64,000 bases of DNA, taken from positions 62,001-126,000 of the forward strand of contig JAGKQI010000004.1 in NCBI GenBank assembly GCA_018806915.1, read 5' to 3'. Positions 8,294-48,507 of this stretch are shown here, one piece after another. The notes under the pieces are model-generated. The model was not told the origin of the DNA and searched no databases. It was given only the letters and a program-made list of their open reading frames with translations. Origin of the DNA: Phytophthora colocasiae. Lineage: Eukaryota; Oomycota; Peronosporomycetes; Peronosporales; Peronosporaceae. The stretch's first letter is position 1. Each line of letters starts with the position of its first letter. Made by a program: the position numbers and the translations under genes.

Positions 8294-9300
8294 AACGACC
8301 CAACTAGGATATGGAATAGGCGGGTCCTTTCAGGTCTCTACGTTACCTGATCTCCACCTAAGGGGATTGAATTTGGTGGAGATCACGACGTACAATGATG
8401 ACGTAGTGGCTTGAATACCTCTCAAGCGGACTTGTGCAGTAGCAAGCAAATTGAACTCTGTTTATCGTTTATCTTCCTCATAACTATCATATATCTCTGG
8501 TAACTCTCTTCTTCTTGTCGTCTTTTGCGTCCTTTGAGCAGTCAGTCTTCATATCTCAGGTACACTTGGTTCTCGTATACATCTGGTACTTTGTCTTTAT
8601 CTCAGTATGCAGTCTGTGCAGCCGATCTCGATGGGTTGACAGGTAGATACGTCATTACGGGGGATGTGCAGGTCAGTAATCACTTGAATGCGTGACTTGA
8701 ACTTGGGTTCACTTGGTTTCAGTATGGTCTTGAATCTTCGGTGGTTTCAGGGTCTGGTATCCTGGTTTTCAGAGTCCGATATCACTTGGTTTTCAGAGTC
8801 TTGGTCACTCAGAGTTAGAGATACCAGAGTCTTGAATACGAAACCAGAGGACGGAGCACTAATGCTTCAACGTACATGAAGATCTTGAGGGTTGCGCGGG
8901 GTGCAAGCGGCGTCCGGCGCGCGATACTTGGTCTCTGTGGGTATATATTGTGAGATCCTTGAACCATCCATCGTCGCGCTGGACGGTAACGGGATGAGGT
9001 CTCTCAGAGATACGTTCTTCTGAGAGACTTTCCGCCAGAACTTAGGCACTCATCGTCGGGGAAAGTCCGGTGACCAGACAGAGTGTAGTCGACCTTCAGA
9101 GTTGTGCACACTCTGAAGTACACTTCTGGTCCTTTGGGCCCCTTTACAGTCAGGCGAAGGTTTATCCACATTCTTCCACAGATGTCGCACGGGTGCGGCC
9201 GCGTCCCAAAGTCCCTTTCGCTTATAACCCATAGTATAACCAATCACATCGTAACGTAATATCCACCTGTCGCTCGAAAATCGGAATTAACATCATGTCA
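8294..9300 (-). repeat. Partial second copy of the G1-family LTR
   Basis: Nearly identical to 3584-4589, including the 10-bp hairpin, and sharing the outer border CATCATGTCA. About 685 bp corresponding to the PBS-proximal part is missing. It separates the truncated LTR of X from the antisense ORF of X, so it probably marks a solo-LTR insertion followed by deletion. Confidence 0.75.
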
Positions 9301-10549
9301 AACGATTCCCCCCAAGGTCTACAAGCGGCCATGACCACGTCCGCTGCAAAGGAAGTTCGGTTGAGGTTGGAGCTGACTCGGACCCAAGCGGAATTGCTCA
9401 CCGCTCGGGGCGAGGTCGCGTACCTGGAACGCGAGGCGGAGGGTCACCAGGCCGAGCTGGCCCGGGCACACCTCGCCCTGGAGGATGTGTCTGCGCCGGA
9501 TTCTCGCGTTCCTCCCTCGGACGCAGCTGCCGACGCCGCCGCTATCTCCAGTCTGAAACAAGATCTGGCAGACGCCTTGGGAAATCTGGAAATAATCCAG
9601 CACGACCGGGACCAGCTCTCTGTCAAGCACCGTGTCGCGATTGCCGAGCGAGATCAGGCTATAGTGGACCTGGATCAGGCCCGCCTTGACCGGGATCAGG
9701 TGGTGCAAGATCTCGATCAAGTCACGGTGGATCGGGATCGGATCCAGGTCGACCTGGACGCAGCCTCCCAAGATCGCCTATCGGCCCTCGCGGAACGTGA
9801 TGTGGCCCGTTCTGCCCGGGACGCGGCTACGCAGGAGCTCAACCAACTCCAACAGCAGAACGCTGAGCTCCGACAGGCTCATCAGGAGCTGGACGCCGAT
9901 TATGCAGAAGCTGAGCAACAGCTGCATCACGCCGAGGATTCTTCTGCTCGGTTGTCCTCGTGGATCGCGGATCGACGGGCGGCTCGTGCCACCAAACGAT
10001 CTCGAAGCGCCTCCGCACCCCCGCCGTTCCTCCTTCTTCACGCAAGTGTCCAGCTCAGAGTTCCTCGGTTCCCCGCGTTCCCGGCGCTGCGGTCGCCGGA
10101 GCCTCCGGATCCACCGAACCCGCCCCGCCCGCGGACCTAGCTCCCGCAGGGCCAACGGCGAGCCCTCTGGATCTGTTGGCGGATCAAGCCTCCGGGCAGA
10201 CTGGAGGGAAGGGAACCGACGAGTCGATCCCCGATCAGACCTTGGTACCGGCTGATGAACTAGGATCGGGCTCGCCCAGCGGCGATCTCCAGGGCGAAGA
10301 AGAGGACGCACCTGGTGGCGAGCTTCGGGACGAAGAGGAAGATGATTCCGACTACGATCCTGATCACCCGTTTTCATCGCCGTCCGAAGAGGACGGGAGC
10401 CCTGACCGCAGCAATGGGACAAGTCCGGAGGGGGTCGGAACATCCTAGTGAAGCGGAGGAATCCGAGGATGAGGATGCCTTACGCATGGTTCTTCAACGG
10501 TCTATTTCGTCGGCTCGAAGGGAATCCGGCCAGGTTCCGAGAGGCAGAT
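9295..10549 (+). pseudogene. Antisense coiled-coil protein of element X, N-terminal part (split by element A)
   Basis: Lies on the strand opposite to X pol, between pol and 3' LTR. Codons 1-240 form an unbroken heptad-rich coiled coil (repeats such as ERDQAIVDLDQARLDRDQVV), followed by a basic patch (RATKRSRSASAPPP) and an acidic middle (EEEDDSDYDPDHPFSS) reached by a frameshift near 10020 and a second shift near 10445. The motif EDALRMVLQRSIS near 10480 corresponds to DDALRATILRSLS in the element A copy. The ATG at 9295 lies in the last bases of the inserted G1 LTR, so the true N-terminus is lost. The gene resumes at 24340 after the 13.8-kb insertion. Confidence 0.75.
10546..10549. other. 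Target-site duplication AGAT, left copy
   Basis: AGAT directly precedes the 5' LTR start TGTGGTGAAG and is repeated at 24336-24339 directly after the 3' LTR end. It shows that element A inserted as one unit into the antisense ORF of X. Confidence 0.85.
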
Positions 10550-11935
10550 TGTGGTGAAGCGCGAATAAGAAATCCGAGAAAAGGCAACGTCAGGCCCAGA
10601 GAGAGTCGGATCAAGCGACAGGGGCCTCTGGCGAAGCAAGATGTCAGTTGATGACCCCAGATTGCGCGAACGATGGCTGACGAATGGATCCAGATCGATG
10701 TTCGTCTGGATCTCGCCAGCGACGAATGGATGGCGTCTTGGTCGAGTGAGACTAAGTGATTGGAGAACCCGCCGTGCGGTCCCGCGTGGCGGCTCAGGGT
10801 CGGAGGAGAAAAGGGCGCCTTGCCTGAGGTCGCATGAGAAGGAGATCAAGGCGGCAGAGGGTCGGGATCGGTGTGATCTATGGTGGGCCGGTGACAACAT
10901 AACCGTGAGATGCTGCCGAGGGGACCTGATGGCAGTGTTAGTCGCGTGGGGAGTGGTGATCAAGTCTGGGAAGCTCAAGACCTGGAATGTCGACGACGCA
11001 GGCACGCGAGATCAAGTATGAAGGCTGCTGATCGGGATCATTGTTCAAGACGGTGGACCAAGATCGATGACCGAGATGGTTGATCGAGATCGGCTGATCG
11101 CCAGATCGCCTGATCGCCAGATCGCCAGATCGCCAGATCGCCTGATCGCCAGATCGCCAGATCGGCTGATCGCCAGATTGGCAGATCGAGATCGCGATCA
11201 GGGGTTAGGTGAGATCAAGAAGATCGGAAGGGCAGCTGTGTAGCCGGATGTCAGGTAATCGTAGGATAGCAGATGAGGATGGGGCTAGTAGACATAGGAA
11301 TAACCATAAACAGAATCGAATTTGCTCTGGACATCACAAGTGCCTTCGTTCAAGACCGGAACTGGGAATTACATTGGCCCCCCGGCATCAAGAAGGTAAG
11401 GAGAAGGGATCTAGCATAGAGGTTAATTCTGGATAATACATTGGCCAGTTTTACCCTATCTAGTGATCTATCCTTTACGTGCAAACTACGGATCGGAAGG
11501 AATTGGCTGCTTGGCCTGACGATCCCGTCGACTCTCGACCCATCAAGACACCCGCTATAGGAAGCGGCAAGCATCGTAAAGGAAGGGATCAGATCCCCAA
11601 CATTGGACCCTTGGAAGACCTGGATCGAAGACCAGGCGACCGGATCAAGGCTCGAGAACTCGCCTGTGACCCGGATCAACCCCTCTGAGGTAGAGTGAAG
11701 TATTCCCACGCTATCTCACCACCCCTGCGTCACCCAAGACATTCTTCTCGTCCCAAGACATCTTCAGAAGTCACCTGGAAGAGCGTAACCCGCCTACCGA
11801 CGGGTACACAAGATGAACACTACACGCAGCAAGATCACGGATCATCGGGGGACCCCCTCCGTTAGTCGGTGTCTGGGCGCAAGTGGCGATCGCGATCGGC
11901 CTCAACCAGATTTTGGCCAGATCCGCTCCACCACA
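10550..11935 (+). repeat. 5' LTR of element A
   Basis: Begins TGTGGTGAAG and ends CTCCACCACA, giving matched TGTGGTG/CACCACA termini. It is a direct repeat of 22946-24335. The first 760 bp are identical by eye between the two LTRs and all differences I found lie after about 11210. The gag frame stays open for 41 codons into the LTR (from 11813). Confidence 0.92.
11083..11200 (+). repeat. GATCGCC(A/T)-type short tandem repeats in the LTR
   Basis: A run of 8-9 bp units (ATCGCCAG, ATCGCCTG) repeated about a dozen times. An identical block occurs at 23479-23598 in the 3' LTR. It is the densest cluster of GATC sites in the window. Confidence 0.85.
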
Positions 11936-14332
11936 ATGGTGCGCGTGCCCGGATCTTCTGGTGACTTCGGATATCACCGTGAGTCCCAAGAAGATGTCAA
12001 GATTAAGGAAGAACAAGGGGAAGAAGTGCCTACGAATGTTGGATCGACGGAGGCACCACTGAAAACGGAAAGATCCACAGATCAGCAGAGTTCTGGGAGG
12101 ATCTCTACTGACAGGCACGAGGCAGACCTGGATCGCAATCCAGATCTTGAAGAAAAACCTCGAATTCCTCCCAAGGCCCCTTCGAGGGCCACCGCGGATC
12201 TCGATGAAAATCGAGATCCGCACACGAGCGATAAGGAATCAGCAAAGCTGAAACCTAATCTGCTCACCAAGTCCACTGTTGCCTCAAGATCGACCAAGAA
12301 AAAGAAGATCAAGAGCACCCGGACGAAATTGAAAGCTCCAGACTCAGAGCCAGAAGATATGATCAGCCCAGGATCGACGATTACCAAGGACGCGATCGAG
12401 CAGGCCTATTACAGGAAGATGCTTAGCGAGACCTTGCTTAACGATCCCGTTCTTACGATCATACAAGTCCGCCAGATCGGTAACCTCACCGGCCCAGTGT
12501 CGAAACCCCGGACTAGGTCGGACCGCCTGAACGCGGTGAAGATTCTACTTGATCTGCTCCAAGAGGCTGGTTTAGTGGCTGGAGAGTTCGACCCAAACTC
12601 TCTATTTGACTTGGAACTGCAAGCGATTCAATCTGCGACCCATGATCTATTCGACTCCCTCAAGATCTTGGTCGGCGAGCGCCTACTGACGCCCGACCCA
12701 GGCTATCAGACTGGGTCGTCATGCTACGCGTCAGCGACCTCGGAACCAGACTCAGATAGCCTGAGAAGGCTGCAACGCATGTCGTTAGGGCCCTCCGGCG
12801 CCAAGTTCCTGAAATCGCGTGTGAAGAAACAGGATACGCGATCGGTGGCCGCAAAGCTGGAGGTCAAGATGCCCGATCAGCAAGAAAATCGCCGGATCCG
12901 GACAGACCAGACCGCGCCGACGACTAATTCCACTGGATCGAGCAACAAGTTGGACGACTACTTTCAAATGGCGATGGATCGTTTCTTAAAAGAACGGAAT
13001 CTCGCGACACCCCGATCGCCGATCAAAGGGGAGTTGGATGTTGAGATGGAGTCCGTTACGGCCTCGGATCCGGATGCATGGGAATACGATCCAGACGACA
13101 TGGGCATACCAAGTTCCGGTGGACAGACGTCGAGCCGAGCGGCGATCGCATCCGCGGCGATCGGTCAAGGAGGATCGTCGATGATCCAGCGGGTCCGGAT
13201 CTCAGCGATCTCGGATCTGAAAGATTTTGCGGGTAAAGATCTGGACGAAGATCGCGCTCGGGCCTGGATCAGTAAAGTCAAGTCAGCATTTCAGCGCGAT
13301 CAGGCTACGGAAGAAGAAAAATGCCTCACATTTGCAGATCTGATGGTGGGACCGGCAAAGAACTGGTACAGGCAGCTCAGTCGAACGACGAAAACCAAGT
13401 GGGCAGATCTGTTGGACAGTTTCCAGACCCAGTATTGTGGGTTGGGTATGTCGGTCGCGTGGCAATACTATCACGCTCGCAAGCGATCGGAAGAAACTCC
13501 CCTTGACTATCTCTACCGGCTCAACGTGGCGGCTTTACGTGCTAGACTGAAGATCAAGGATGGGAGCCCTAAGGCCCGCCGGGAACATGTAGACCACTAC
13601 ATCGAGACATTGGGAGATCCGGAGTTAGCTGATCGGCTGACCCTACTCCGGCTAAGTGACGTCGATGAACTGGAGGAGGTACTTCGTGCCCGGGAACGGG
13701 CGAAAAGCAGACAGCGTAAGTCTGCGTTCGGATCGAAGTACCGACAAAAGGCACCGGCCAGCGCCCCGGCAGCACCCACCCGAGCGGTGGTACGGGCGGT
13801 CCAAACCCAAGATCCGAGCTCGGAATCGGAAGAAATATCCGGATCGGACGGATCCGATTCTGAAGGCGATCTCCGGAGGATATATCTTGCCGCGTCGGAA
13901 GACAAGCAGATCGGCACTGGGGGCGTTCCCCACCAACAGGATCAGTCGCGATCGCAGGTGAACGCGCAAGATCGAGGCCGGATCGCGGATCGCAGGGGTA
14001 CGTCAGACCACGATCGAGGTCGCTGTTCACACTGTGGATCGCGGAAGCATACGGATCTGGACTGCTGGAGACGTCTAACCTGTGAAAAGTGCGGGAAGAG
14101 GGGTCACCCAACGGATCGCTGTCTGTATACCTGCCGTGGTTGTGGGGAGATCCATGAAGCTGGAGAATGCCCCATGGAAGAATTCTACAACCAGATCCGC
14201 AAGTGGTACGACCCGACCCGACATGCCGGATTGTTCCCCGAGAAGGTGGAAAAGATGTTAAACCAGGACGCTCGCCGGTTTGGAAACCGGTACGAGTCGA
14301 GCGTTCTGAGTACTGCATCTATGCATATGTGA
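11936..14332 (+). CDS. gag: Gag of element A
   Basis: Structural protein that packages element RNA, 798 codons from the ATG at 11936; the frame is open further up into the LTR. The first 400 residues are charged and probably disordered, with a Lys-rich patch (SRSTKKKKIKSTRTK). Residues about 420-590 form the retrotransposon gag/capsid-like domain (RARAWISKVKSAFQRDQATE and RSEETPLDYLYRLNVAAL). Near residue 697 begin three zinc knuckles: CSHCGSRKHTDLDC, CEKCGKRGHPTDRC and CRGCGEIHEAGEC. The frame is intact, unlike most of this window. The protease frame overlaps its 3' end in the -1 phase. Confidence 0.9.
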   Translation: MVRVPGSSGDFGYHRESQEDVKIKEEQGEEVPTNVGSTEAPLKTERSTDQQSSGRISTDRHEADLDRNPDLEEKPRIPPKAPSRATADLDENRDPHTSDKESAKLKPNLLTKSTVASRSTKKKKIKSTRTKLKAPDSEPEDMISPGSTITKDAIEQAYYRKMLSETLLNDPVLTIIQVRQIGNLTGPVSKPRTRSDRLNAVKILLDLLQEAGLVAGEFDPNSLFDLELQAIQSATHDLFDSLKILVGERLLTPDPGYQTGSSCYASATSEPDSDSLRRLQRMSLGPSGAKFLKSRVKKQDTRSVAAKLEVKMPDQQENRRIRTDQTAPTTNSTGSSNKLDDYFQMAMDRFLKERNLATPRSPIKGELDVEMESVTASDPDAWEYDPDDMGIPSSGGQTSSRAAIASAAIGQGGSSMIQRVRISAISDLKDFAGKDLDEDRARAWISKVKSAFQRDQATEEEKCLTFADLMVGPAKNWYRQLSRTTKTKWADLLDSFQTQYCGLGMSVAWQYYHARKRSEETPLDYLYRLNVAALRARLKIKDGSPKARREHVDHYIETLGDPELADRLTLLRLSDVDELEEVLRARERAKSRQRKSAFGSKYRQKAPASAPAAPTRAVVRAVQTQDPSSESEEISGSDGSDSEGDLRRIYLAASEDKQIGTGGVPHQQDQSRSQVNAQDRGRIADRRGTSDHDRGRCSHCGSRKHTDLDCWRRLTCEKCGKRGHPTDRCLYTCRGCGEIHEAGECPMEEFYNQIRKWYDPTRHAGLFPEKVEKMLNQDARRFGNRYESSVLSTASMHM
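11937..11954 (+). other. Primer-binding site of element A
   Basis: One base after the LTR end stands TGGTGCGCGTGCCCGGAT, the same primer site as in element G1. The likely gag start codon (ATG at 11936) overlaps its first two bases. Confidence 0.85.
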
Positions 14333-15209
14333 ACAAGAAATCGAGAGATCAAGATAGGGAGAATTCGGATCTGCGCGGTAATACATGTAAGTTGCATTCG
14401 TATACTGCTAAGATCGCGAGTCTTCCCCGGATCGATGAGTTCTCTCGATCTGGTGCGGAAGTGGCTCTGGATCTCAAGGAAGGAGAGTCCAGGGGGTATT
14501 GGAAATACCACGCACCCGGAAAATGGTTCCGCCAAGCCAAGATCTCAGGCAAGATCAATCACGAAAGAGCGATCTTGCTCCTGGACACTGGCGCCGAGGT
14601 ATCCATCTTGGATACCACCTTTGCTCGTAAGGTTGGGTGCCACTTTGACACTAGTCAGAGACAGGAGTGTGTTGGGATCGGTGACAATGTGTACACCACC
14701 GAGGGAAGAACGAGGATCAAGATCACGCTTGCGGGATACTTGGTCTACTTTTCGATATTTGGATCGGGGATCTATCCGGGCAAGATGCGATCCTGGGTAT
14801 GGATTTCATGATCCCGGCTGGAGTCCGGATGGATCTGGCGAAGGGATCGATGTGCTTACCTAATGAAGTGGGGATCCCACTTAGTGGTCGCAAGAGATTA
14901 TACGGGGAGAAGGTAAGATCGGTAAAATTGGAGGAAGATCTACATATCCCAGTTGGGGGATCTGAAGAGATCGCATCGAGAGTGAAATTATCGGCGACAG
15001 AGAAATTGTGGGTGACCAGAGGCGACCAATGGGTACCTACAGTGGTGAATGGACCCGGCCGAACTCGGTACTTAGTGATCACGAATTTGAGCGAGAAGAT
15101 TTTACGACTGGATCACAGATTACATGTTGGAATGGTACTTGATCAAGGAAAAGTTCCTCGATACCCCGGGTTTGTGTCGGTCGGATCCCGGCGTTACATG
15201 GAGTGGTAG
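14170..15209 (+). pseudogene. Protease region of element A pol
   Basis: Aspartic protease that cuts the polyprotein. The frame overlaps the end of gag in the -1 phase. The active site is LLLDTGAEVSILD (14575), with ILGMDFMIPAG-type flap sequence further on. Comparison with the element C copy shows a one-base deletion in a T run at about 14747-14752 (four Ts against five) that shifts the frame, and a Gln to TAG change at 15207 (EWQNLALEA in C). Both lesions would block pol expression. Confidence 0.85.
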
Positions 15210-15230
15210 AATCTAGCTCTAGAAGCGACT

Positions 15231-17546
15231 ATGGACGCAAGACCAGAACCTCAGGAATCCGTGGAGATCCCCTTACCGTCGGTCGAACGGCCGACCTACG
15301 TTACGCCGCGATCCATACTCCGCCGAGGTGAGGCAACCAGGACCGACCCTGATCCTGCACCAATATCGACACTGGAACCGCGATCACCAACCGATACAGC
15401 CGAAGTCAAGGTCGCATTCATCGATCCCCAACCGGATCCCAGGGATACCCCACCGATTACGATCAGTTCCGACAAGACCCCGAGTGGCGAAGCTGGGGGC
15501 GGTGAGACTGAGACGAATGAGAGCTTGCCAGATCAGGCCCCAGATCGGACAGATCGGACATGCAAAGAAGAGATCGAGGTAAAAACAGAAAAACCAGATT
15601 TTCAAATCGAGATCAAACATGAATCCGACGCCGATGCCGTCCCCAGGGTTAAAGACACCCCGATCTTGACAGCCAAGGACGATAGGCCGCGTGATCAATC
15701 AACGGATGAACCGGATCCGACATCTCCTGAAGGGATCGAGAACGCCGATCAGACCCACTTACACGAAAGTGGCGATTTTTCGACCAAAGATCTAGCCAAT
15801 AATCTCGCAGTAGTACCAGAGATCCAGATCTCCACCACCGAAGAAGTCAGGATTGAAGATCTGCAAGTAGGGAATCCGGGATCGGCTACCCCGGAGGAGA
15901 TCGAGAAACTTCGACAGATTATTTGGAAGAAGCGACATCTCCTGATCGGAAAGGGAAACGCACTTCCTCCAGCGGCCAAGGGTGTTATATGCGATATCGA
16001 CGTGGGTGATGCAAAGCCGATCGCACAACGAGTCCGAAAGGTGGCGCCACAGTTTCGCGAGAAAGTATCGGATCTTATCAAAGGACTCCTAGCTGCCAAG
16101 ATCATTCGGCCATCGACATCGCCATGGGCATCTCCGATCGTGGTGATCATCAAGAAGAACGGTGTAGACATCCGACTATGTATCGATTATCGGCTGGTGA
16201 ACGGTCTCACAAGGCTGATGATCTACCCGATGCCTCTGATCAATGACCTGTTAGAAGATCTTGACAAGGTTCTGTGGTATTGTTCATTAGACATGGCGAG
16301 TGGATTCTGGGTCGTATCAATGACCGATCGAGCTCGCGCGATCTCAGCTTTCATCACTCCATTTGGCCTTTTCGAGTGGAATCGTATGCCGTTCGGGCTG
16401 AAGAACGCTCCTCAGATCTATCAACGCCTTGTGGACAATGCCCTATATGGATTTCTGAAGATCTCCCAGTCCGGAGATGTGGAAGGCTCTGCGGATGTGT
16501 TCGAATCAGGGATCCCGGAAGATCCCGGTCGCCCGTCGGTGCTAGGTCGGAGATCATACATCGACGATATCTTGATCACGGCTGGATCATGGGATCAAAT
16601 GTGCGATCGGGTGGAAGGCCTATTGGAGGCCTGTGATAAGTGGAATCTCTCGATCAGTGTGGCAAAGAGCTTCTGGGGCATGGATAAGGTGGAATATCTC
16701 GGACATAAAGTGTCGATCGATGGATTGGAAGCAAACCCGAAATACCTGAAGTCTCTGACGGATCTACCATTCCCTGGATCACCCCGATCCATGCAATCGT
16801 TCCTTGGAAGTTTGAATTACTATAGTCGGTTCATCGAGGATTATGCGATCTATGCATCGGTCCTATATGAACTACGTGAGGTGGAGTTCGCAGAACTGAA
16901 GAAGCGACCAGATCTACGAAAGATCATGGATAGCATGGACCTGATCACTCAAGATCCCGTCGCGCTTAAGTCGGATCGGGATAGATCACTAGATATCCCG
17001 ACTCAAAGAAGCGATAGTACAACGGATCCTGACTTGGGGGCGATGTCTTCACCCTGTTCAAGCGAGATCGGAGCCAACCTGGACCTAAAGACTGGTGACG
17101 AGAGGTGGGGTAGGGCATACAGGGCGTTTACAGCCTTGAAGACCAAGATCGCGTCGACCCCGATCCTTCGCCACTTCGACACGACGAAGTTACCCGTGGT
17201 GATCGTGTACGCTAGTGACTGGGCGATTTCCGCCGCACTAATGCAGGAACACGACCAGATCTACCACCCGGTCGCGTTTGCCAGCCGAACCTTGAAGACC
17301 AACGAGCTGAATTATAATGTTGCCGAAAAGGAGGTGTTAGCTCTACTTCGGATCTTGGATCTACACTACACCTTGTTGGTGGGACGTCGGATCAAGGTCC
17401 TAACCCGACACTCGACGCTTGCCTGGCTGTTCAAGTCTGCCGGCCTCCAAGGACGTCTGGGACAATGGTCTGCTCTTCTGTCCTCGTGGACACTCGAGAT
17501 CACGAAGTGTACGAAGGGGATGAAATACTGGGGCGATCGCAGCTAA
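15231..17546 (+). pseudogene. pol: Reverse transcriptase and Ty3-type RNase H of element A
   Basis: Starts with a long acidic, Pro/Asp-rich linker (residues 1-220) after the stop at 15207, then the RT: KIIRPSTSPWASPIVVI, LCIDYRLVN, FGLFEWNRMPFGLKNAPQI and the catalytic SYIDDILIT near residue 443. After a thumb region (YLGHKVSIDG, SFLGSLNYYSRFIED) the first RNase H domain follows near residue 655 (VIVYASDWAISAAL, NYNVAEKEVLALLRIL). The frame breaks near 17520 where the element C copy reads CTKGEDEILGAIAAS. The domain order is that of Ty3/Gypsy. Confidence 0.92.
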
Positions 17547-18438
17547 CATAACGCCCCGATCGGAGATCGACGAAGCTCTGATCGCGATCGCGCCGCGAAA
17601 GGAGCCAAAACGTCGGATCCAGATGCCGATCCCCACTGTAGACCCAGATGAGGAGTTGTGGGTTATAAGTTTCGACGGATCGGCACGCGTGAAACGAGGA
17701 GGAGGTGCTTTCAGCGCGATCGTGTGGAGTTTACCAGAGTGGAAGGTGATCAAGGCTAGATCGGATTATGCTGAAAGCCTCACTGTCAATGAAGCGGAAT
17801 ACCGTGGACTCTTGCTAGGTCTTGGCATGATCGCACAGTTAGAACGCCGCCGTTTGGTCGTTTGTGGCGATTCGAATCTGGTGATCCGACAAGTCCGGGG
17901 CGAGATCGACTGCAAGGCGCCAGGATTGACGCTACTGAAACAGAAGGTGCTAGATCACTTGCGGAATTGGGGAGATCACGAGCTGGTCCATGTGAAGAGA
18001 GACTGGAATGGGAGCGCAGATAGCTTGGCGAGTGCCGCGCTGCAGCGAGGAAGCGGGATCGAAGTCCACGATGAGGCAGATCGATGCGATCTGATCACCC
18101 TGAATCGGCTCAATGAGGTGTTGATCCCTCGAGTTGAAGATCGATCTGTGCAAGTGTCGGCAGTAGCCACGCGTGCAGCCCGAGCGCGACCTAGTGTCGC
18201 TGTCCTGCGGGAGGAACTGATCCGGGAGATGCGGGTTGATCGGATCAGGCGAGCCCAGGACGAGGAGGTCAGGATCACCGGACTAAAGAAGTACCTGGCT
18301 GGGCAGATCGCGGATCTTACTCGAGCCGAATCCGGATCCTACGCCAAGATCGCCTCCGAGTACGAGGTAGATGGAACAAGATCTGTTGTTTTACTGCCCC
18401 ACCAGGGCCGAGATCAAGAGGTGATCGCGATCGCCTGA
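17547..18438 (+). pseudogene. Second (archaeal/plant-type) RNase H of element A
   Basis: A second RNase H lies between the Ty3 RNase H and integrase. The acidic residues of the fold are visible: WVISFDGSARVKRGGGAF (first Asp), SLTVNEAEYRGLLLGLGM (Glu), LVVCGDSNLVIRQVRGEI (second Asp) and KRDWNGSADSLASAAL (last Asp). Such an extra RNase H is known from plant Tat-type and oomycete Chronos/Archon elements. The C-terminal tail (EVIAIA, TGA at 18438) ends one frame away from integrase, so a frameshift separates the two. Confidence 0.9.
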
Positions 18439-19853
18439 TGAGACTTGTAGTTCCAGAAACGCTACAGCAGGATGTCCTCCACCACTATCATACGACTCTG
18501 GAAGGAGGACATCAGGGGATCGGGCGCACTTATCAGCGGATCCGAGATCATTTCCACTGGAGGGGATTATATCGGAGCGTGCAGCGATACGTAGGCGAGT
18601 GTGTAGATTGTGAGACCGGGAAGGGGAGACCCACGATCCGGGGCGAGTCGCCGGGGAATCTGCAGGCGACATACCCATTCCAGATCATAGCGATGGATCA
18701 CATACCTTCTCTGCCCAGATCCAACAAAGGCAACACCGAACTACTGATCTGGGTCGATCTGTTCACGGGATATGTGATCGCAAAGGCCAGTTCCTCCCGA
18801 TCGGCCCAGACCGTCGCGGAATCTTATGAAGAATGCGTGTTCCGCAGATTTGGTGCTAGCGAGATGATCAGGCACGATCGAGAACCGGGTTTCATGTCCG
18901 ACTTCTTCAGATCGTTCAATAAGATCCTGGGGCAGCGACAACGGGCAACGATGGCCTACCGGCCACAAGCCAATGGGACTGCAGAACGGATGGTGCAAAC
19001 GGCGACTAGGGCGATCAAGATGTATGTTCAAGATCTCGATCAGAAGGACTGGGATGAATACGCGGAGAGACTGACGTTCGCCATTAACACGGCTCACGAT
19101 CGGGTTCGGGGAGATACCCCTCATTACCTGGTACATGGATGGGATCCGAGATCGACGTTGGAGGCAACGATCCCGATCGGATCGACCAGACGCCACGATC
19201 GCGATCCAAGACGGTGGAGGTATCGGGTTCAGAGATACTACCAGCAGTCGCGAGAGCAGGTCAACGCTAGACTACGAGAGGCGATTGCAGATCGAGCCGA
19301 TCGGCACAATGAGGATGTCGATCCGCATCAGATCGAAGCTGGATCACGAGTTTGGCTATACCTAGATCGTGTGAAGGAAGGGTATGCACGTAAACTCGCT
19401 CACCTTTGGCACGGCCCGTTCCGTGTTGCAGAGAAGCTCAACGAATTCACGATCAAGCTGGAGATCGCGGGATCAGATTACCATATCTTCCCAGTGGTCC
19501 ATGTTTCTAAGCTAAAGCTGGTGCGGAATTTTCCGGATCGACCGCGGGTCGAGTTGACGGTAGATGAAGCAGATCGGCTAGATTTCGATGAGATCCTCCT
19601 TCCGGAGGACAGTTGGGTCCCAGATCTGGATGCCGACGAGTACGAGGTCGAACGGATCTCGGACATGCGAAGTGGGAAACGGACTCGCTACGGCCAGATC
19701 TATCGTGAATTCCTGGTGCACTGGGTCGGTTATGATGAACCAACTTGGGTCGACGAAGCTGATCTTAACTGTGGAGCCATACTGAGCGCGTTCCTACGTG
19801 ATCATGCTAACCGAAATCGGTTTGGCGTGATGCAGTCGCACGAAGAGGTGTAG
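18438..19853 (+). CDS. Integrase with C-terminal chromodomain of element A
   Basis: Inserts element cDNA into the genome. It has the HHCC zinc finger (HHYHTTLEGGHQG to ECVDCETG), the catalytic core with Asp near residue 86 (IIAMDHIPSLP), Asp near 146 (IRHDREPGFMSD) and Glu near 183 (PQANGTAERMVQT), a GPF/Y-like region (LWHGPFRVAEKLNEF) and a chromodomain at about 400-460 (YEVERISDMRSGKR, FLVHWVGYDEPTWVDEADL). The chromodomain is thought to steer insertion to heterochromatin. The frame is intact, but upstream lesions uncouple it from pol. Confidence 0.93.
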   Translation: MRLVVPETLQQDVLHHYHTTLEGGHQGIGRTYQRIRDHFHWRGLYRSVQRYVGECVDCETGKGRPTIRGESPGNLQATYPFQIIAMDHIPSLPRSNKGNTELLIWVDLFTGYVIAKASSSRSAQTVAESYEECVFRRFGASEMIRHDREPGFMSDFFRSFNKILGQRQRATMAYRPQANGTAERMVQTATRAIKMYVQDLDQKDWDEYAERLTFAINTAHDRVRGDTPHYLVHGWDPRSTLEATIPIGSTRRHDRDPRRWRYRVQRYYQQSREQVNARLREAIADRADRHNEDVDPHQIEAGSRVWLYLDRVKEGYARKLAHLWHGPFRVAEKLNEFTIKLEIAGSDYHIFPVVHVSKLKLVRNFPDRPRVELTVDEADRLDFDEILLPEDSWVPDLDADEYEVERISDMRSGKRTRYGQIYREFLVHWVGYDEPTWVDEADLNCGAILSAFLRDHANRNRFGVMQSHEEV

Positions 19854-20232
19854 ACGCAGAGAAGGCGACGTGACCGGGTCACAACGCCGAGATCGCGGAT
19901 GCTGATCTGGATGTCTATCTGGATCGGATGTGGAGATTTTATGTTTTTCGTGGAGATTTTATATTTTTCTTGTATATGCATGTGAAACCGGAGTGATTGG
20001 AAGGAAGATATGGAGATGAGATTTCGAGGATGCTAAGTGGGATCGAAACTGTGGAGTAAGTATGGAGAAGAACGCTGGTTTTTGAAGCTGGAAAGATTAC
20101 GTGGAATTGAAAAGAGGCTAGGCTGGAGATGGGATCGCGTGGCGAAGTATCGGATCGTGATAGAGAATATGTAAGCGTGCTGACCGACTCCAGGCTCAGC
20201 TGATCACCTCCGGACTGGTCGAGATCGCGGGA
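19854..20232. other. Spacer between convergent pol and antisense ORF of element A
   Basis: A 379-bp gap without a gene. It contains a T-rich direct repeat, GTGGAGATTTTATGTTTTTC and GTGGAGATTTTATATTTTTC, at 19930-19971. The corresponding spacer in X (25315-25400) also carries a short duplicated GGAGATTACGAGAAT on the opposite strand. A role as a two-way polyadenylation region is an inference. Confidence 0.5.
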
Positions 20233-22820
20233 TCAGGGAGTCCCAGGAGGTGTAGGTGGAGCAGGCGGGTTAAACTTGTTTTCGAGCCGTGGGATCTGCC
20301 GGGACGGGTGATCTGCCGGCCGATCGCGGTAATGGTTGCGCCAAGGGTCCTCCTGATCGCATTCTGCCAACGCAGAGATCAGATCGGTGGGCTCCGGTCG
20401 GTTCAGAGTCGGCTGGGCCAGGTTAGCCATTCGGGAGGCCCATCCGGGGTACCAGTATACCCGATCACGGATAGTAGGGAAGTGCAGGAAGTAGGGATCG
20501 AGCAGAAGATCGATGTCCGCCCACATCGCCCTCATCATGGGCAGGAATCGTCCCAACAGCAGCCGCCAACGTTCTCCGGTACGGCTACGCCGTTGCCGAC
20601 GCTCGAGGTAATACCGACGGAGATCAGGATCAGCTTCATACATCGCCTTCGTGATCTCGAGATAATGGGTCGATTCCCAGTAGGCCTGCAGGTGATCTGA
20701 CTCGAAGGCGGCGTAGGCATCCGCGATCTGCCCCAGCATGGTTCCAGCACGACGATGTAGACCGAGATCGAAGGTGAGGGGGGCCGGTCGGTTGCGGAGC
20801 ACCTCCCAAGGTCGGGTAGCAAGTAGGGCCTGCACGTTGGGCCCAGTGATCAGGCTAGCCAACCAACCGACCCCGGCTCGGGAAGGGCGATTAGCCGGTG
20901 ATCTCGCGGGGTAGAGGAATCCGGGAGGTAGCAGCAGCCTCTTGGACAATGTGGAGAGGATCATACCGACGATCGCCAAAGTTCCGACGAACATCGGATC
21001 CCACGGGAAGACATCACCAGCCGCAAACTGCCGGACGTTCGCATACCCGGGAATAGACAGGCTGATCGCGAACAGGGAGGGTGCAGCTGGGGGCGTGGCG
21101 AGCCGCCGGGAGAGCCGCCACCCGGAGATCCCCCACCGGGAGGGCTCCCGCCAGCTGGACTACCCCTCGGGGACCCCTGAGGAGAAGTGATCGGAGTCTG
21201 TGGGGAACTGCCGCCCGGAGGTGTCGGCTGCGCCGGAGGCGTCGATAGAGCAGCCCCCCCTTGATCACCGGATGCTGGAGGAGGATTTCCATGCCGGCGG
21301 TGCCACGACAGCGATCGGAGTATCGTAGCCCGAAGAGCGTCGTCGGATCCAGCGCCAGAATCCTCCGCGTCATCGTCATGCTCTGGATCGGGTTTACGTT
21401 TGGACCGATCCGAGCCACCCTTCTTCGGGGAAGGTGCTTCCACGGTCACTTGCGAGGTGGCCTGGGTGCTATCTGCTTCCTCCGCATCCGGCCCAGTCGG
21501 GATCGCGGGTTCAGGACCCAGATCGAAGGGGTCTGGGCTTTCCTCGTGCTTTTCTTCGAGCTCGGTCGCCTGGGCCTGGCCACCGGGTTGGTCTCCAGCG
21601 GGAACATCAGGTGGGGCCGCGTCGTGATCAGCCGGGGGAGGCTCCGTCCGCGAGGTCTTGTGCGGGGGCGATGTAGCAGGAGATGGGGGCGGACTGAGAG
21701 CACGTTTGACCCCCCGTTCATCTTGAGCAGCGCGGAGCCGAGACACCATTTCGGTCAGGACGTTGGTGGTCGCCATTACGTCACCTTCTGCCTGATCGTA
21801 GTTCTCCTGCAATGCCTGAAGACTCGCTTCTAACTCCTGCACTTCGGCATGGGTACCGATCAGATCATCCTCTACGACAAACAGAATATGAGTGATCATG
21901 GTCAGGTGGAGGGGGATCTAGACTATATGCGCACCTAGACGAGTGGATCGTTGTCGCTCGGCGCTGAGATCCGCCTGTGCTCTGTCGCGATCTGCGAACG
22001 CTTGGTCTCGTTCCACGAGTAGGCGATCCCGCTCCGAAGTGACTCAATTCAGTTCGGAGTTAGCGTGGGCGAGTTGATCGGTGGCTAGGTCACGTTCACC
22101 AGCGATACTGGTCAGGGAAGCGATCGCTCGGGCGGAGTCCGCCAAGGCTCGATCTCGCTCAGCCAGGGCCAATCGGGTGGGAGCCCCTGTCGAAGGCGTG
22201 GGGCTGGAATCCAGTTGGAGATGTGCAAGATCAGCCGAGATCCGGTTGTAGCTGGCCTTGGCAGTGATGGAGTCTTGCTTCGCCTCAGCCAGATCGCAAG
22301 CATGGATCCGGGCTTCCGCCTGGAGATCCTGGATCTCGTTGGTGGCTTGTTCCACCTCTTCGGTCAGACGATCCCTGTCCTCTGTAGCTCGATCTAGGTC
22401 TGCCTGGGCAGAGTTGAGACGCCGCGCGAACTCGTCGCGTTCCGATCGGAGCTGGTGAACCTGCATACGCAATCCATCGAGATCAGAGGCTTCCTCCGCG
22501 AGATCAGCGATCTCGCGCTCCAGACGCGCAATCTCGCCCTGCTGGTCTGCCCGGAACCGCTCCATGGCGTCGACATGCGCCCGAAGTTCCATGGCTTCAC
22601 GACTTAGTTGATCACGTTCGCGCACCAGGCGATCCCACCCTGGACTGCCCGGCATCGGCCCAGCCTCATCGGATGAGAGCGGGCGTGCGTGGTCTGGAGC
22701 CGGACCCGACGAACGTCGCGAGATGTCGGAATGGGGAGATGGCGGACCGTCGGGGGATCTTGGGGAATCGGGAGGTTTTGGCAAATAATCGCTCCGGGTA
22801 TAACTTCTTTGCTGGATCAT
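20233..22820 (-). pseudogene. Antisense ORF of element A: coiled coil, acidic/proline-rich middle, conserved C-terminal domain
   Basis: An approximately 860-codon frame on the strand opposite to gag-pol. The ATG at 22820 is 125 bp from the 3' LTR. Residues 60-300 form a coiled coil (ERDQLSREAMELRAHVDAME), followed by Pro/Ser-rich and acidic stretches (PDPEHDDDAEDSGAGSDDAL) and Gly/Pro repeats (GGSPPGGGSPGGGSPGG). The C-terminal 260 residues look globular and helical: SIPGYANVRQFAAGDVFPWD, ADIDLLLDPYFLHFP, RVYWYPGWASRMANLAQP. This domain is closely matched in the X copy, which argues for selection. Breaks: TGA at 22044-22046, TAG at 21918-21920 and a frameshift near 21070. I recognise no known family. 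Confidence 0.75.
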
Positions 22821-22930
22821 GGAGACTGGAAGGGATCCGTTGGTGGTAGTCGAAGTGTTGTCAGGGTGACTTGTGCCTTGGGCTGAAGATTGAGAATGAG
22901 ACCTGAAGTGGACCGAGACGGACCAACTTG

Positions 22931-22945
22931 CAGGCTGGGGGCGGA
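22931..22945 (+). other. Polypurine tract of element A
   Basis: CAGGCTGGGGGCGGA stands directly before the 3' LTR start TGTGGTG. It is purine-rich, as needed for plus-strand priming. The same tract, inverted (TCCGCCCCCAGC), borders the element C LTR at 48188. Confidence 0.8.
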
Positions 22946-24335
22946 TGTGGTGAAGCGCGAATAAGAAATCCGAGAAAAGGCAACGTCAGGCCCAGAGAGA
23001 GTCGGATCAAGCGACAGGGGCCTCTGGCGAAGCAAGATGTCAGTTGATGACCCCAGATTGCGCGAACGATGGCTGACGAATGGATCCAGATCGATGTTCG
23101 TCTGGATCTCGCCAGCGACGAATGGATGGCGTCTTGGTCGAGTGAGACTAAGTGATTGGAGAACCCGCCGTGCGGTCCCGCGTGGCGGCTCAGGGTCGGA
23201 GGAGAAAAGGGCGCCTTGCCTGAGGTCGCATGAGAAGGAGATCAAGGCGGCAGAGGGTCGGGATCGGTGTGATCTATGGTGGGCCGGTGACAACATAACC
23301 GTGAGATGCTGCCGAGGGGACCTGATGGCAGTGTTAGTCGCGTGGGGAGTGGTGATCAAGTCTGGGAAGCTCAAGACCTGGAATGTCGACGACGCAGGCA
23401 CGCGAGATCAAGTATGAAGGCTGCTGATCGGGATCATTGTTCAAGACGGTGGACCAAGATCGATGACCGAGATGGTTGATCGAGATCGGCTGATCGCCAG
23501 ATCGCCTGATCGCCAGATCGCCAGATCGCCAGATCGCCTGATCGCCAGATCGCCAGATCGGCTGATCGCCAGATTGGCAGATCGAGATCGCGATCAGGGG
23601 TTAGGTGAGATCAAGATCGAAGATCGGAAGGGCAGCTGTGTAGCCGGATGTCAGGTAATCGTAGGATAGCAGATGAGGATGGGGCTAGTAGACATAGGAA
23701 TAACCATAAACAGAATCGAATTTGCTCTGGACCTCACAAGTGCCTTCACCCAAGACTGGAACCGGGAATTACATTGGCCCACCAGCATCAAGAAGGTAAG
23801 GAGAAGAGATCTAGCATAGAGGTTAATTCTGGATAATACATTGGCCAGTTTTACTCTATCTAGTGATCTATCCTTTACGTGCGAACTACGGATCGGAAGG
23901 AATTGGCTGCTTGGCCTGACGATCTCGTCGACTCTCGACCCATCAAGACACCCGCTATAGGAAGCGGCAAGCATCGTAAAGGAAGGGATCAGATCCCCAA
24001 CATTGGACCCTTGGAAGACCTGGATCGAAGACCAGGCGACCGGATCAAGGCTCGAGAACTCGCCTGTGACCCGGATCAACCCCTCCGAGGTAGAGTGAAG
24101 TATTCCCACGCTATCTCACCACCCCTGCGTCACCCAAGACATTCTTCTCGTCCCAAGACATCTTCGGAAGTCACCCGGAAGAGCGTAACCCGCCTACCGA
24201 CGGGTACACAAGGTGAATACTACACTCAGCAAGATCACGGATCATCGGGGGACCCCCTCCGTTAGTCGGTGTCTGGGCGCAAGTGGCGATCGCGATCGGC
24301 CTCAACCAGATTTTGGCCAGATCCGCTCCACCACA
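22946..24335 (+). repeat. 3' LTR of element A
   Basis: Direct repeat of 10550-11935, TGTGGTG to CACCACA, with a 4-bp insertion near 23616 and about 18 substitutions, all in its second half. It is followed by the AGAT target duplication. It carries the same GATC-rich short repeats at 23479-23598. Confidence 0.92.
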
Positions 24336-24339: not shown

Positions 24340-25311
24340 CTTCCGGGGTCTCCGGGCGGCTCAAGCCCATCTCCAGATGGATCAAGCCCACCGTCTCCGG
24401 GATCACCTCCGGGTTCCCCGTCACCGCCGTCACCTCTTCTCGGTGGTTCTCCGCCCCTCGGGCTCCGACCCCCTCTGTTCTCGGTCGCTTCTTTCATCCC
24501 AGGCTACGATTGGCAGCGTACCTTCGCGGCCGCGGACGTCGAACCGTAAGATCCGCAGGTGATCGGGCAGTATTCGATCGTGGGCCTGATTGCCAACTCT
24601 TTGGCCAAGCGGTTGTTGATCCCCTCGGGTTGGCTGTTCCCCTCTCGGATACAGGCCGGGCTTGCACCGACCCCCGGCACCGAATATCTCAACGAGTTGA
24701 TCACGGGTGTGAACGTGCTTGATCTGATGGCCCAGGAACCGTGGAACGATTTCCCGGATCCGGGGCCCCTCACGTTCGACCTCGACCTACATGAGAGGGA
24801 GGGAACACCACTCGCAGTCGTAGCCGCCACTTATCGTGTCTTGAAAGAACGGCATCGTCAGGCGTTTTGGGAGGCTACGCACAACCTCGAGATCACTTCT
24901 GCCATGCAAGCCGCGGATCTCGAACTGCAGCGATATTACGTCGCTCGCAAGGCCAGACGGAGTCGCGCTGGGTCCGCTTGGCGTCAATTTCTCGCCTTCT
25001 TCCCCGCCATGATGCGCAATCAGTGGTTTGACCTCGACATTCTATTGGATCCATTCTTCCTTCACCTCCCCATTCCTGCGGTGAACGCTGTTTGCTGGTA
25101 TCCCGGCGTGGTTTCTCGGCGCGCCAACCAGGCGGATCCTAACGCGAATGTCCCAGAGCCAGCGAACCTGATCGAGGCTCTAGAGGAATGTGACGAGGCA
25201 GATCCGTGGCGTAACCAGTACCGGAGTAACCCAGTCGACCACCCCGCTACCAGGATTCCCCGCCTTCCTGGCAAGTTCGATCCTACTCCTGCCGGGGCCG
25301 CTTCCCCGTAA
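24340..25311 (+). pseudogene. Antisense protein of element X, C-terminal part
   Basis: Continuation of 9295-10549 after the insertion. It opens with a Pro/Ser/Gly-rich run (SPPSPGSPPGSPSPPSP), then the conserved C-terminal domain: FIPGYDWQRTFAAADVEP, WFDLDILLDPFFLHLPIP, VCWYPGVVSRRANQADPN, EECDEADPWRNQYRSNPV. A TAA at 24547-24549 stands where element A codes Trp (FPWDP); the frame otherwise stays open to the stop at 25311. The domain aligns with the element A copy along its full length without internal breaks, with only moderate amino-acid identity. Function unknown. Confidence 0.8.
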
Positions 25312-26272
25312 GCTAGGGCCGTTCTGTATATTTCACATTTCCATCCGTAATTCTCGTAATCTCCATTCGCGATTCTCGTAATCTCCATTTCCACAGTCGT
25401 TCCATCGTGCTCCATCGTTTTGAGGACATGATCCTCCTTCATCCCCATCTCGACATTCAAGATCGCCTTTCTCCAGTCGTCAAATTTCTTGCTCACATGC
25501 ATACCGACTTCCTCTGTTTATACCGGTCACCTGCATATAACGGTCAGCCAATCACAATCAAGAAAGAGAATAGTGAATTTCCTCTGCTTATAACGATCGT
25601 ACAAAACCGAATCACAACGGTACGCGTTTTTGACACTGACCAGTCATTTTTTTCAAGTGATAATTTAGAGTGGTTTAGCTCGAATGCGCGGCAAACGACG
25701 AGCGTCATTCACGACAGGAGACAAACTTGCCATGATAAATGCGGTAGGGAAGACATGAAGAACCTAAAACTGCTGTTGTGGGATGACTTCTCCAGATTGC
25801 GTGCGTGTCGGGTTGTGAATCTGAGCGAACAACGCGAGCTCATGCCCCCAGGTTCTCCGTTTTCGATGGAAGCAAGATGGATACGAGAGGCTTAAGACAG
25901 TCTCTTGGTCGAGGTGATAGTGAAAGGGTACAAGAAATGCTTTGGTGAGTTGGTTATTGAGAGCGACACGGTAGCAGCTGATCGCATTGACCTCCTATGA
26001 GTCCTTGAGCGCCAGTGTGTGCTGTATGAATCGGAGACGATATGGATACATAACAGTTTTTTTTTAAATTTTATTTTTTTTTCAACTTTAATTCTGTAGC
26101 CATCTGTACATACATGTTCATGGTGGTACGGTGTACCATGTACACGGGTGACCGTTATAAACAGAGGAAGTCGGTATACACAAATATAAAATTTTCGCCT
26201 GATCTGGATTTTACTCCACATCAGCTTCTTCGATCACGGTGAGGCAACCCTGCTGCTTCACCTGACGTCCAC
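25312..26272. other. Spacer between convergent antisense ORF and integrase of X
   Basis: No gene is recognised in this stretch. It starts with the duplicated CTCGTAATCTCCATT motif (25350-25390), then holds a TIR-bounded insertion (25501-26177) and an AT-rich stretch near 26050. A plus-strand frame at 25407-25895 is open but resembles nothing I know and crosses the insertion border. Confidence 0.6.
25501..26177. mobile_element. Small TIR element, MITE-like (677 bp)
   Basis: The left end ATACCGACTTCCTCTGTTTA and the right end, its inverse TAAACAGAGGAAGTCGGTAT, form about 31-bp terminal inverted repeats with one mismatch. Flanking TA bases would fit a TA target duplication but this is not certain. 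No transposase is visible inside. It lies in the spacer where element A has none, so it looks like an insertion. Confidence 0.65.
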
Positions 26273-27486
26273 TTACACCTCTTCGTGCGACTGCATCACG
26301 CCAAACCGGTTCCGGTTCACCTGATCTCGCAGGAACGCACTTAGTATAGCTCCACAGTTGAGATCAGCTTCATCGACCCAAGTCGGTTCGTCGTAGCCGA
26401 CCCAATGCACCAGAAATTCCCGGTAGATTCTGCCATAACGGGTCCTTTTTCCACTCCGCATATCGGAGATTCGTTCGACCTCGTACTCATCAGCCTCTAG
26501 ATCCGGGGTCCAACTATCCTCAGGCAGCAGGGTCTCGTCGAAATCCAGGCGATCGGCCTCGTCCACCGTCAGCTCGACTCGGGGCCGGTCAGGGAAATTC
26601 CGCACTAGTTTCAACTTCGAGACATGAACTGTCGGGAATATGTGGTATCCTGATCCCGCGATCTCCAGCTTGATCGTGAACTCATTAATCTTCTCCGCCA
26701 CTCGGAACGGGCCATGCCATAGGTGTGCCAGCTTGCGCGCGTAACCTTCTCTCACCCGATCCAGGTACAGCCAAACCCGGGATCCGGCTTCGATCCGGTG
26801 AGGATCAATCCCCTCATTATGCCGATCAGCTCGGCCAGCGATCGCCTCCCGCAACCGGACATTGACTTGTTCCCGTGACTGCTGATAGTACCTTTGGACC
26901 CTATATCGCCATCGACGAGGATCACAATCGTGATGTCTGGTAGACCCGACTGGGATCGTCGCCTCCAGCGTCGATCTCGGATCCCACCCGTGCACCAGAT
27001 AATGGGGGGTATCTCCCCGGATCCGGTCGTGGGCAGTGTTGATCGCGAACGTTAACCGTTCGGCGTACTCGTCCCAGTCCTTCTGATCGAGATCCTGGAC
27101 ATACATCTTGATCGCCCTCGTTGCTGTTTGTACCATTCGTTCAGCCGATCCATTGGCTTGGGGGCGATATGCCATCGTTGCTCGCTGCCGTTGTCCCAAT
27201 ATCCTGTTGAAGGATCGGAAGAAGTCGGACATGAAACCCGGCTCCCGATCGTGGCGGATGATCTCGCTGGCACCAAACCTTCGGAACACGCACTCCTCAT
27301 AAGATTCCGCGATCGTTTGGGCGGATCGAGAGCAACTGGCCTTGGCAATCACATATCCCGAGAACAGATCGACCCAGATCAGCAACTCGGTGTTGCCCTT
27401 ATCGGATCTGGGCAAGGACGGTATATGATCCATCGCTATAATCTGAAACGGGTAAGTCGCTTGCAAATTTCCTGGGGATTCGCCTT
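26273..27486 (-). pseudogene. Integrase core and chromodomain of element X, fused to copia RNase H
   Basis: Nearly identical in sequence to the element A integrase from GESPGNLQATYPF onward: Asp in IIAMDHIPSLP, Asp in IRHDREPGFMSD, Glu in PQANGSAERMVQT, and chromodomain RTRYGRIYREFLVHWVGYDE. The zinc finger is missing. Upstream the frame reads directly into copia RNase H (27487-27706), an artefact of rearrangement that gives a 463-codon chimeric frame. It is convergent with the antisense ORF at 24340-25311, which places both in one element. Confidence 0.88.
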
Positions 27487-27706
27487 GGATAGTGATGATC
27501 GCTGCTTGGTTGTCAATTCCAAGTCTCAGCTTGACACTGCGGTCCGGCAATATTTCCTGCAAAATGTTGCTTTCCGCTACAGCCTCCATTGTTGCTTCAC
27601 ACGATGCAACATATTCTGCTTCCGCCGAAGAAGCGCCACGATAGACTGTCGACGTGACATCCACGAGATTTCACCTCCAGCTAACGTAAACACGAATCCT
27701 GTTGTG
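27487..27706 (-). pseudogene. Copia RNase H fragment (element part 2, inverted)
   Basis: Minus-strand sequence TGFVFTLAGGEISWMSRRQS, then after a frameshift SSAEAEYVASCEATMEAVAE and LRLGIDNQAAI. This is the copia RNase H block that should directly follow RKSV at 7231. It is bordered by X integrase on the left and X RT on the right. Confidence 0.85.
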
Positions 27707-40074: not shown

Positions 40075-40220
40075 CTTGCTGGTTGCTTGGTAAATGCAAA
40101 AGTGAGATTCAGATTAGACAATGCCCGCACACGTCCCCTTCACTACGCTACGAGCTACACCCTTGCTGCCCTCACTGATGTGGTTGCAGTTGCAACTGCA
40201 ACGACAGGACTCTACGAAAG

Positions 40221-48290: not shown

Positions 48291-48507
48291 ATGTCCGATC
48301 CGCCTCCTTCGCCCTCTTCGACGCCGAGAACTCCTTCGAGCGAGCACTCGATCCGATCAGCTCGATCCACCGCCTCACGTTTCTCCACTCCTGGTGTAAA
48401 CCATGAGCTGGTCACCTTGCAAGCGAGGCTGGCCCATAGCCAACGGATGCGCGAGACCTTGGGTCGCGATCGGGACCACCTGGATGACACCGTTCGCCCG
48501 CGATCTT
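48291..48507 (+). pseudogene. Antisense ORF of element C, N-terminal fragment
   Basis: ATG at 48291, 103 bp from the LTR, with SSEHSIRSARSTASRFSTPG and the start of a coiled coil (VTLQARLAHSQRMRETLGRD). It is then joined abruptly to the second RNase H of C at about 48507. Position, strand and composition equal those of the antisense ORFs of A and X. It is the third example. Confidence 0.7.

Follow-up and report, generated by a model that had tools for sequence, protein, structure and literature searches.

Element A, a Gypsy retrotransposon predicted to be of the Chronos type, lies within a 64,000-nucleotide stretch of Phytophthora colocasiae DNA (contig JAGKQI010000004.1, positions 62,001 to 126,000; hereafter the window, whose numbering is used throughout) and carries an extra gene on the minus strand, between the end of its integrase (19853) and the start of its 3' long terminal repeat (LTR; 22946). 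The frame of this gene is almost certainly kept by natural selection as a protein gene, and the gene has very probably been exchanged, as a cassette, relative to the pol gene that it adjoins; the antisense protein family and its exchange appear to be new. An initial annotation of the window had proposed a conserved antisense coding region at 20233-22820, and this is borne out by matches, by relatives and by ratios of nonsynonymous to synonymous divergence (dN/dS). Our overall interpretation, held with moderate confidence, is of an optional antisense gene that is selected, exchanged and separately expressed, and that encodes a nuclear regulator of the element.

In the window copy the coding region is not the single frame of about 860 codons that had been described, but three stop-to-stop frames at 20233-21159 (308 codons), 20961-21917 (318 codons) and 22044-22985 (313 codons). 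The parts of the gene and its surroundings are as follows.

22893..22899, minus strand: initiator-like site, motif YCAYTYY, 79 nt upstream of the start codon of the antisense gene
22044..22820, minus strand: N-terminal part of the antisense gene, mostly coiled coil, from frame reading and coiled-coil analysis
21872..21934, minus strand: candidate 63-nt intron (GT..CTGAC..AG) at the site of the in-frame TAG of other copies, from 28 distinct sequences at 57 loci
21097..21871, minus strand: end of the coiled coil and a Ser/Pro/Gly- and acid-rich linker, with the frame broken in the window copy
20236..21096, minus strand: conserved C-terminal domain of about 260 residues, from 209 profile matches and dN/dS

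Two families of the gene were found in this genome, the A-type and the X-type, the latter named after a second window element, X; L-numbers denote copies or loci in the same genome, and P-numbers database proteins. In the same-genome search all 40 scored DNA candidates matched (139 first-look candidates), with 136 protein matches, and in all 50 of the loci L001-L050, some places being counted twice, the integrase lies on the strand opposite the antisense gene. Among the A-type copies L002-L020 the alignment runs from an ATG in 17 of 19, a 300-codon upstream frame is present in 8, and a downstream frame of 561 codons (565 in one) in 13; in copy L004 the two form a single 862-codon reading frame interrupted by an in-frame TAG after codon 300. 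Of the five X-type copies that we selected for long open frames, four have an ATG giving 934 or 948 codons, and the start motif was not found in the fifth, L053. Among the first 98 matches to the X-type domain, the C-terminal domain is free of stops in 89, of which 28 also have a stop-to-stop frame of at least 930 codons.

Selection on the antisense frame was estimated by the Nei-Gojobori method. The ten pairs of the five X-type copies gave dN/dS of 0.19-0.32 over the whole frame and 0.12-0.35 over the C-terminal domain, and comparison of the A-type copy L004 with L058-L061 gave 0.14-0.22 for the N-terminal part, 0.19-0.37 for the middle and 0.15-0.28 for the C-terminal part. Three closer A-type copies (L019, L046 and L056) are noisy, with values of 0.09-0.87, and to that extent count against the case. 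In the other frames of eight pairs (four of the X-type, four diverged ones of the A-type) dN/dS was 0.76-1.89, except in the mirror frame -2, where it was also low (0.20-0.34) yet accompanied by 27-38 stops. A chance open frame is rejected because low dN/dS is frame-specific, being confined to the antisense frame and its stop-filled mirror. A functional, that is selected, antisense product, as the initial annotation suggested, is thus supported by dN/dS, far below the value near 1 that it had named as contrary evidence, and by the constant position of the gene.

The case for exchange comes from the neighbouring integrases. We scored 90 integrase copies 97-100% identical to that of A (from 3910 first-look candidates) against 98 A-type and 140 X-type matches, eight short A-type fragments being left out. 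In the 2 kb downstream of these integrases, the opposite strand carries an A-type domain in 28 cases and an X-type domain in 51; no integrase has both types next to it, 11 have neither, and a domain on the same strand was found at 0 of 90. Of six inspected among the 11, four adjoin a broken gene (A-type in L067, X-type in L068, L072 and L074), and no antisense gene was found within 1.66 kb in L073 and L075. The A-type and X-type C-terminal domains that accompany these near-identical integrases are only 52-54% identical, with a saturated synonymous divergence (dS) of about 2.5. Between element A and the X-type element L051, integrase dS is 0.29 (93.9% DNA identity), against the domain dS of about 2.5; between L051 and window element X the relation is reversed, with an integrase dS of 2.44 (79.9% DNA identity) and a domain dS of 0.48 (86.8%). 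Integrase dN/dS is very low (0.02-0.07), and therefore protein identity alone would mislead on relatedness; the inner nodes of a five-row integrase tree are weakly supported (0.295 and 0.893), so the case for exchange rests on distances.

The boundaries of similarity suggest how much moves together. Between A and the X-type loci, homology stops 57-58 nt past the integrase stop codon in four of five cases and at the stop codon in L053. Beyond that point, the blastn matches are a stretch of about 35-63 nt surrounding the LTR start, one 71-nt match within the gene (L051) and two short LTR matches in L052. From its position 688 onward, the LTR of A matches that of X at 84% and that of a third window element, C, at 83%; before position 688 there is merely a 25-nt match, in C. 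These boundaries suggest an exchanged stretch that extends from the end of pol into the LTR. The most likely mechanism would be a template switch, close to the end of pol, between RNAs packaged together.

It might instead be supposed that no gene was exchanged, the antisense types having descended with their pol lineages while pol was homogenised by gene conversion. A-linked integrases are generally closer to that of A (up to 99% DNA identity, against 96% for the three X-linked ones in the top 40), and exchange events may therefore have been few. Gene conversion would nevertheless still be recombination between pol and the antisense gene, and window element X shows the reverse pairing, a distant integrase with a near antisense gene; we regard descent without exchange as improbable.

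The antisense gene is optional in Chronos elements, because elements of another pol branch are without it. Ten integrase matches are at least 95% identical to that of window X (A's own is 93%), and three of these adjoin an X-type domain (C66, C58 and C57:1342595). Of the seven that remained, five were inspected (L065, L066 and L069-L071), and all five are without the antisense gene, a point that counts against our overall interpretation; the longest frame is at most 150 codons, three of the five have an LTR-start match about 930-950 nt after the integrase, and three have pol-side frames of 1285-1905 codons. On absence from most intact copies, which the initial annotation had named as evidence against function, the result is divided: the gene adjoins 79 of 90 A-like integrases, and five of five inspected elements of the other branch are without it.

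Database searches place the gene in a large and old family. Searches with the C-terminal domain returned 20 proteins from an X-type query and four, itself included, from P0013, and an eight-sequence profile gave 209 protein matches among the best 8000 candidates scored; the best 120 of the 209 were inspected. Relatives were found in Phytophthora sojae, P. infestans, P. rubi, P. fragariae, P. palmivora, P. cinnamomi, P. megakarya, P. citrophthora, P. idaei, P. nicotianae, P. cactorum, P. capsici, P. lilii, P. pseudosyringae, P. boehmeriae and P. fragariaefolia, and by name outside Phytophthora in Nothophytophthora and Peronospora matthiolae, others being from unnamed sources. All named relatives are from Peronosporales; Chronos hosts are expected to belong to Peronosporales or Pythiales. 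The hidden Markov model searches that the initial annotation had suggested thus yielded relatives in other Peronosporales, while no library names the domain. Most relatives are annotated as hypothetical or uncharacterized, and for five of them we looked for papers that name them and found none. P0015 and P0024 are annotated 'Autophagy-related protein 16', a label that we take as a coiled-coil artefact. From sequence likeness, the relatives in other species are presumably also linked to Chronos elements, in which case Phytophthora 'hypothetical proteins' of this large family would be identified as genes of this kind of retrotransposon.

In a quick tree of 122 C-terminal domains, the A-type joins 15 P. 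megakarya rows (support 87), the X-type joins a single row from P. citrophthora (99), and a neighbouring branch has P. sojae alongside P. fragariae and P. pseudosyringae rows (97). The gene types seem older than the species, because the rows of P. megakarya and those of P. fragariae are each spread over several deep branches. When P. infestans-type and deep-type probes were used to look for a further type of the gene in the genome, the listed matches fell, as judged by eye, at places of the A-type or the X-type. The many old types and the linkage to integrase disfavour a host gene captured once, which the initial annotation had raised as an alternative.

The protein is laid out, from N to C terminus, as a coiled coil, a disordered linker and a unique C-terminal domain, and the same arrangement is seen in P. 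infestans proteins of 940-1048 residues. Heptad periodicity in the N-terminal half has a best z of 5.4 in A, 6.6 in P0023, 4.7 in P0013, 4.1 in P0005 and 3.0 in L051, against at most 1.4 in the integrase control; in P0005, where stretches beyond the N-terminal half reach 3.7-3.8, the signal is unspecific. The linker has a basic KR-type motif in five of seven proteins, and its Ser/Pro/Gly- and acid-rich stretch a short SRS..RR-like motif, also in five of seven (P0005, P0013, P0022, P0023 and P0024; no strict-pattern match in L051 or P0003), which might serve for modification or docking. In 87 aligned proteins, the residues conserved in at least 90% include W97, W140, H144, R166, R169, R170, W177, D194, D196, D200, P201, F203, W215, W252, R253, H263 and P264. 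Against Pfam, the best 25 of 61 weakly matched families for this alignment are largely coiled-coil ones; 29 pattern matches among IMG/VR contigs were all unrelated, and nothing convincing was found in a DNA search of phages or among NCBIfam, PHROGs, PADLOC or PDB sequences. Matches in PDB to the Beclin-1 coiled coil (E 0.018) and TATA-box-binding protein (E 0.0082) were taken as chance or composition, and an origin from the element's own gag was rejected (hhalign probability 0.2%).

For the A-type gene, the reading as one protein has to accommodate a TAG that stands in frame in all but one of the 28 distinct sequences (57 loci). The segment that bears it begins with GT and ends with AG in all 28, has CTGAC 34 nt before its end in 25, and is 63 nt long in 19 and 60 or 66 nt in two. 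The coding parts on either side are both under selection, and the X-type protein is without a counterpart of the segment, though an extra coiled coil sits there. The simplest reading of these sequences is that the segment is a short intron; readthrough of the TAG, or two separate proteins, would be the alternative. Weighing against the intron and the single protein, together with the TAG itself, are the seven of 28 sequences whose segment length is not divisible by three, a loss of codon periodicity across the segment that is not significant (p 0.089), and an open frame longer than 594 codons in none of the genome's A-type protein matches.

The initiator-like site, defined by the motif of PMC3599244, is found in 19 of 19 copies L002-L020, and an FPR-like sequence, allowed 2 nt after it, in 15 of these. 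The pair in L008 has one mismatch, which was equalled by 1.5% of shuffles (one copy shuffled). The distance of 79 nt falls among those of P. infestans transcription start sites, 32-144 nt before the ATG (PMC3599244). Less favourable to a promoter here are the frequency of the initiator alone in two shuffle tests (33% and 56%) and the X-type copies, which have an initiator at 69 nt and are missing the second motif.

Given that the antisense gene is selected and exchanged between element families, it is probably useful to the element. Its constant antisense position and the promoter-like site suggest separate expression, and we propose that it would be expressed from its own promoter just inside the 3' LTR, with the short intron spliced out in A-type copies. 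The protein would self-associate through its coiled coil and, in the nucleus, control its own U3, or host chromatin or silencing acting on the element. A coiled coil, a basic motif and an acid-rich linker fit a multimeric nuclear factor, and nuclear regulation is the function that we rank first, tentatively; no known fold or domain in Pfam, NCBIfam, PHROGs, PADLOC or PDB sequences points to regulation, which argues the other way. Joint exchange of gene and U3 may be mere linkage, because everything 3' of a switch point close to the end of pol moves with it and both LTRs receive a copy of U3; alternatively, it may reflect matching of protein and U3. A more speculative and rather doubtful extension is that the gene and the adjoining U3 constitute an interchangeable control module, comparable to an immunity or incompatibility cassette, in which a protein of one type acts on its matching U3 only. 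If so, pol lineages would acquire, drop or trade the module as a way out of self-limitation or host silencing, and Chronos identity would be modular, as in phages and plasmids. The exchange pattern makes the function of such antisense genes testable and, if protein and U3 must match, predicts interacting pairs.

Other functions fit parts of the evidence. The antisense protein could be a component of the particle or of the integration complex, such as a tether, instead of controlling expression: a long coiled coil and a large conserved domain suit an assembly factor, and the integrase chromodomain shows that targeting matters for these elements. We consider this unlikely, in that the protein is without profile likeness to the element's gag, a separate antisense transcript would be an odd route to a particle protein, and gene-less elements exist. 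To a similar degree we doubt that the protein antagonises host defence by blocking RNA or chromatin silencing of the element, for although deep diversification and exchange suit a host-facing gene, and optional presence an accessory one, purifying selection is strong and the antisense RNA would itself pair with genomic RNA. That the frame matters chiefly as RNA, for antisense control or as a source of small interfering RNA, with the protein incidental, has a precedent in antisense transcripts of other elements that act as RNA (PMC7264820), but is very improbable given the codon-position bias, the dN/dS of about 0.2 throughout the frame and the conservation across species at the protein level.

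It has been reported that plant Tat/Retand elements carry antisense ORFs (open reading frames), in agreement with the initial annotation: Grande gene23, RIRE2, Retand and PvRetro13, with the TRP28 domain PF04195; some of the proteins have Smc-like (coiled-coil) matches, gene23 is reported to be nuclear, and a regulatory role has been proposed (PMC7264820, PMC11963269). The Chronos gene resembles these in its antisense position between pol and the 3' LTR. In contrast, TRP28 was found in none of the eight profile members of the Chronos family and was not among the best 25 of 61 Pfam families for 87 members, and in the Chronos protein the coiled coil is N-terminal to the conserved domain, unlike in the plant proteins; the available text of PMC7264820 and PMC11963269 makes no mention of the gene moving from one pol lineage to another. 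Tat and Chronos each have a second archaeal-type RNase H, gained independently (PMC5348765), to which the antisense gene adds a further likeness. The brtn gene of Boty elements in Botrytis is likewise an extra antisense gene of an LTR element in a filamentous microbe, the likeness being by description only (PMC7264820, PMC8365987). As first described, Chronos has ORF1 and ORF2, and the word 'antisense' occurs 0 times in the main text of that report (PMC5348765). The initial annotation knew of no report of an antisense gene in oomycete Chronos, and none was found in a literature search that left most subscription papers outside. HBZ and APH-2 of human T-lymphotropic virus (HTLV) are antisense proteins encoded near the 3' LTR, as in Chronos. 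HBZ is a bZIP coiled-coil protein that regulates HTLV-1. The bZIP family is not among the Pfam matches listed for the Chronos protein, which does have heptad periodicity; the promoter-like site of Chronos, by contrast with HBZ and APH-2, lies outside the LTR.

Element A as a whole spans 10550..24335, as read from its LTR ends, and its two LTRs are 98.3% identical by blastn. Its remaining features are as follows.

10550..11936, plus strand: 5' LTR (98.3% to the 3' LTR by blastn; AGAT at both outer flanks)
15210..17546, plus strand: pol, reverse transcriptase and RNase H (Pfam RVT_1, RT_RNaseH)
17524..18438, plus strand: pol, second RNase H of RVT_3 type (Pfam PF13456, E 1.9e-13)
18240..19853, plus strand: integrase with C-terminal chromodomain (Pfam H2C2, rve, Chromo; Chromo E 1e-6)
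22923..22957, plus strand: 35 nt across the LTR start, polypurine-tract-like, common to X-type elements (91% in L051 and L053-L055)
22946..24335, plus strand: 3' LTR, its first 687 nt unlike the LTRs of X and C, the remainder 83-84% alike

The LTR-start match with L052 is longer than 35 nt, at 81%. By homology, LTR positions 1-687 would be U3 and the remainder R-U5. Chronos is defined by a second RNase H, of archaeal type, and a chromodomain (PMC5348765), and on its predicted second RNase H, here assigned by the RVT_3 match, and its chromodomain, element A is a Chronos-type Gypsy element. Within its LTR, 23483-23584 consists of about 12.8 tandem copies of the 8-nt unit AGATCGCC.

The other two elements in which the initial annotation placed the gene, X and C, contribute the following features.

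9301..10545, plus strand: first piece of the antisense gene of X, covering X-type residues 195-605 in fragments (tblastn)
24344..25311, plus strand: second piece, including the C-terminal domain
26276..27670, minus strand: integrase-chromodomain of X (Pfam rve, Chromo; Chromo E 8.9e-7)
48342..48497, plus strand: antisense gene fragment of C, 52 residues, 96% identical to the X-type protein

The gene of X is interrupted by the insertion of A. Both of its pieces are thus present as had been claimed, while X-type residues 1-194 had no tblastn match within 7001-10549. The C-terminal part of X contains one stop, so its alignment with A is not quite 'without internal breaks'; the presence of the gene in C holds. 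Between the antisense gene and integrase of X, about 670 nt (25504-26174) are unmatched in the X-type locus L051 and are probably an insertion. The part of the X LTR adjoining the antisense gene (8154-8293) is 84.6% identical to the X-type L053 and, over 8194-8288, 83% to L051; the remaining LTR is about 91% identical to gene-less elements of X's own pol branch. On these identities, X may have a mosaic LTR.

Elsewhere in the window, direct repeats at 3688-4543 and 8396-9254, about 4.7 kb apart and 97-99% alike, are distinct from the LTRs of element A. Further element pieces are a Copia-type reverse transcriptase (6525-7301), a Ty3-type capsid (38669-39694), a Gypsy reverse transcriptase with RNase H (40179-41690) and, at 57044-58762, a frame that runs from an integrase zinc finger to a chromodomain.
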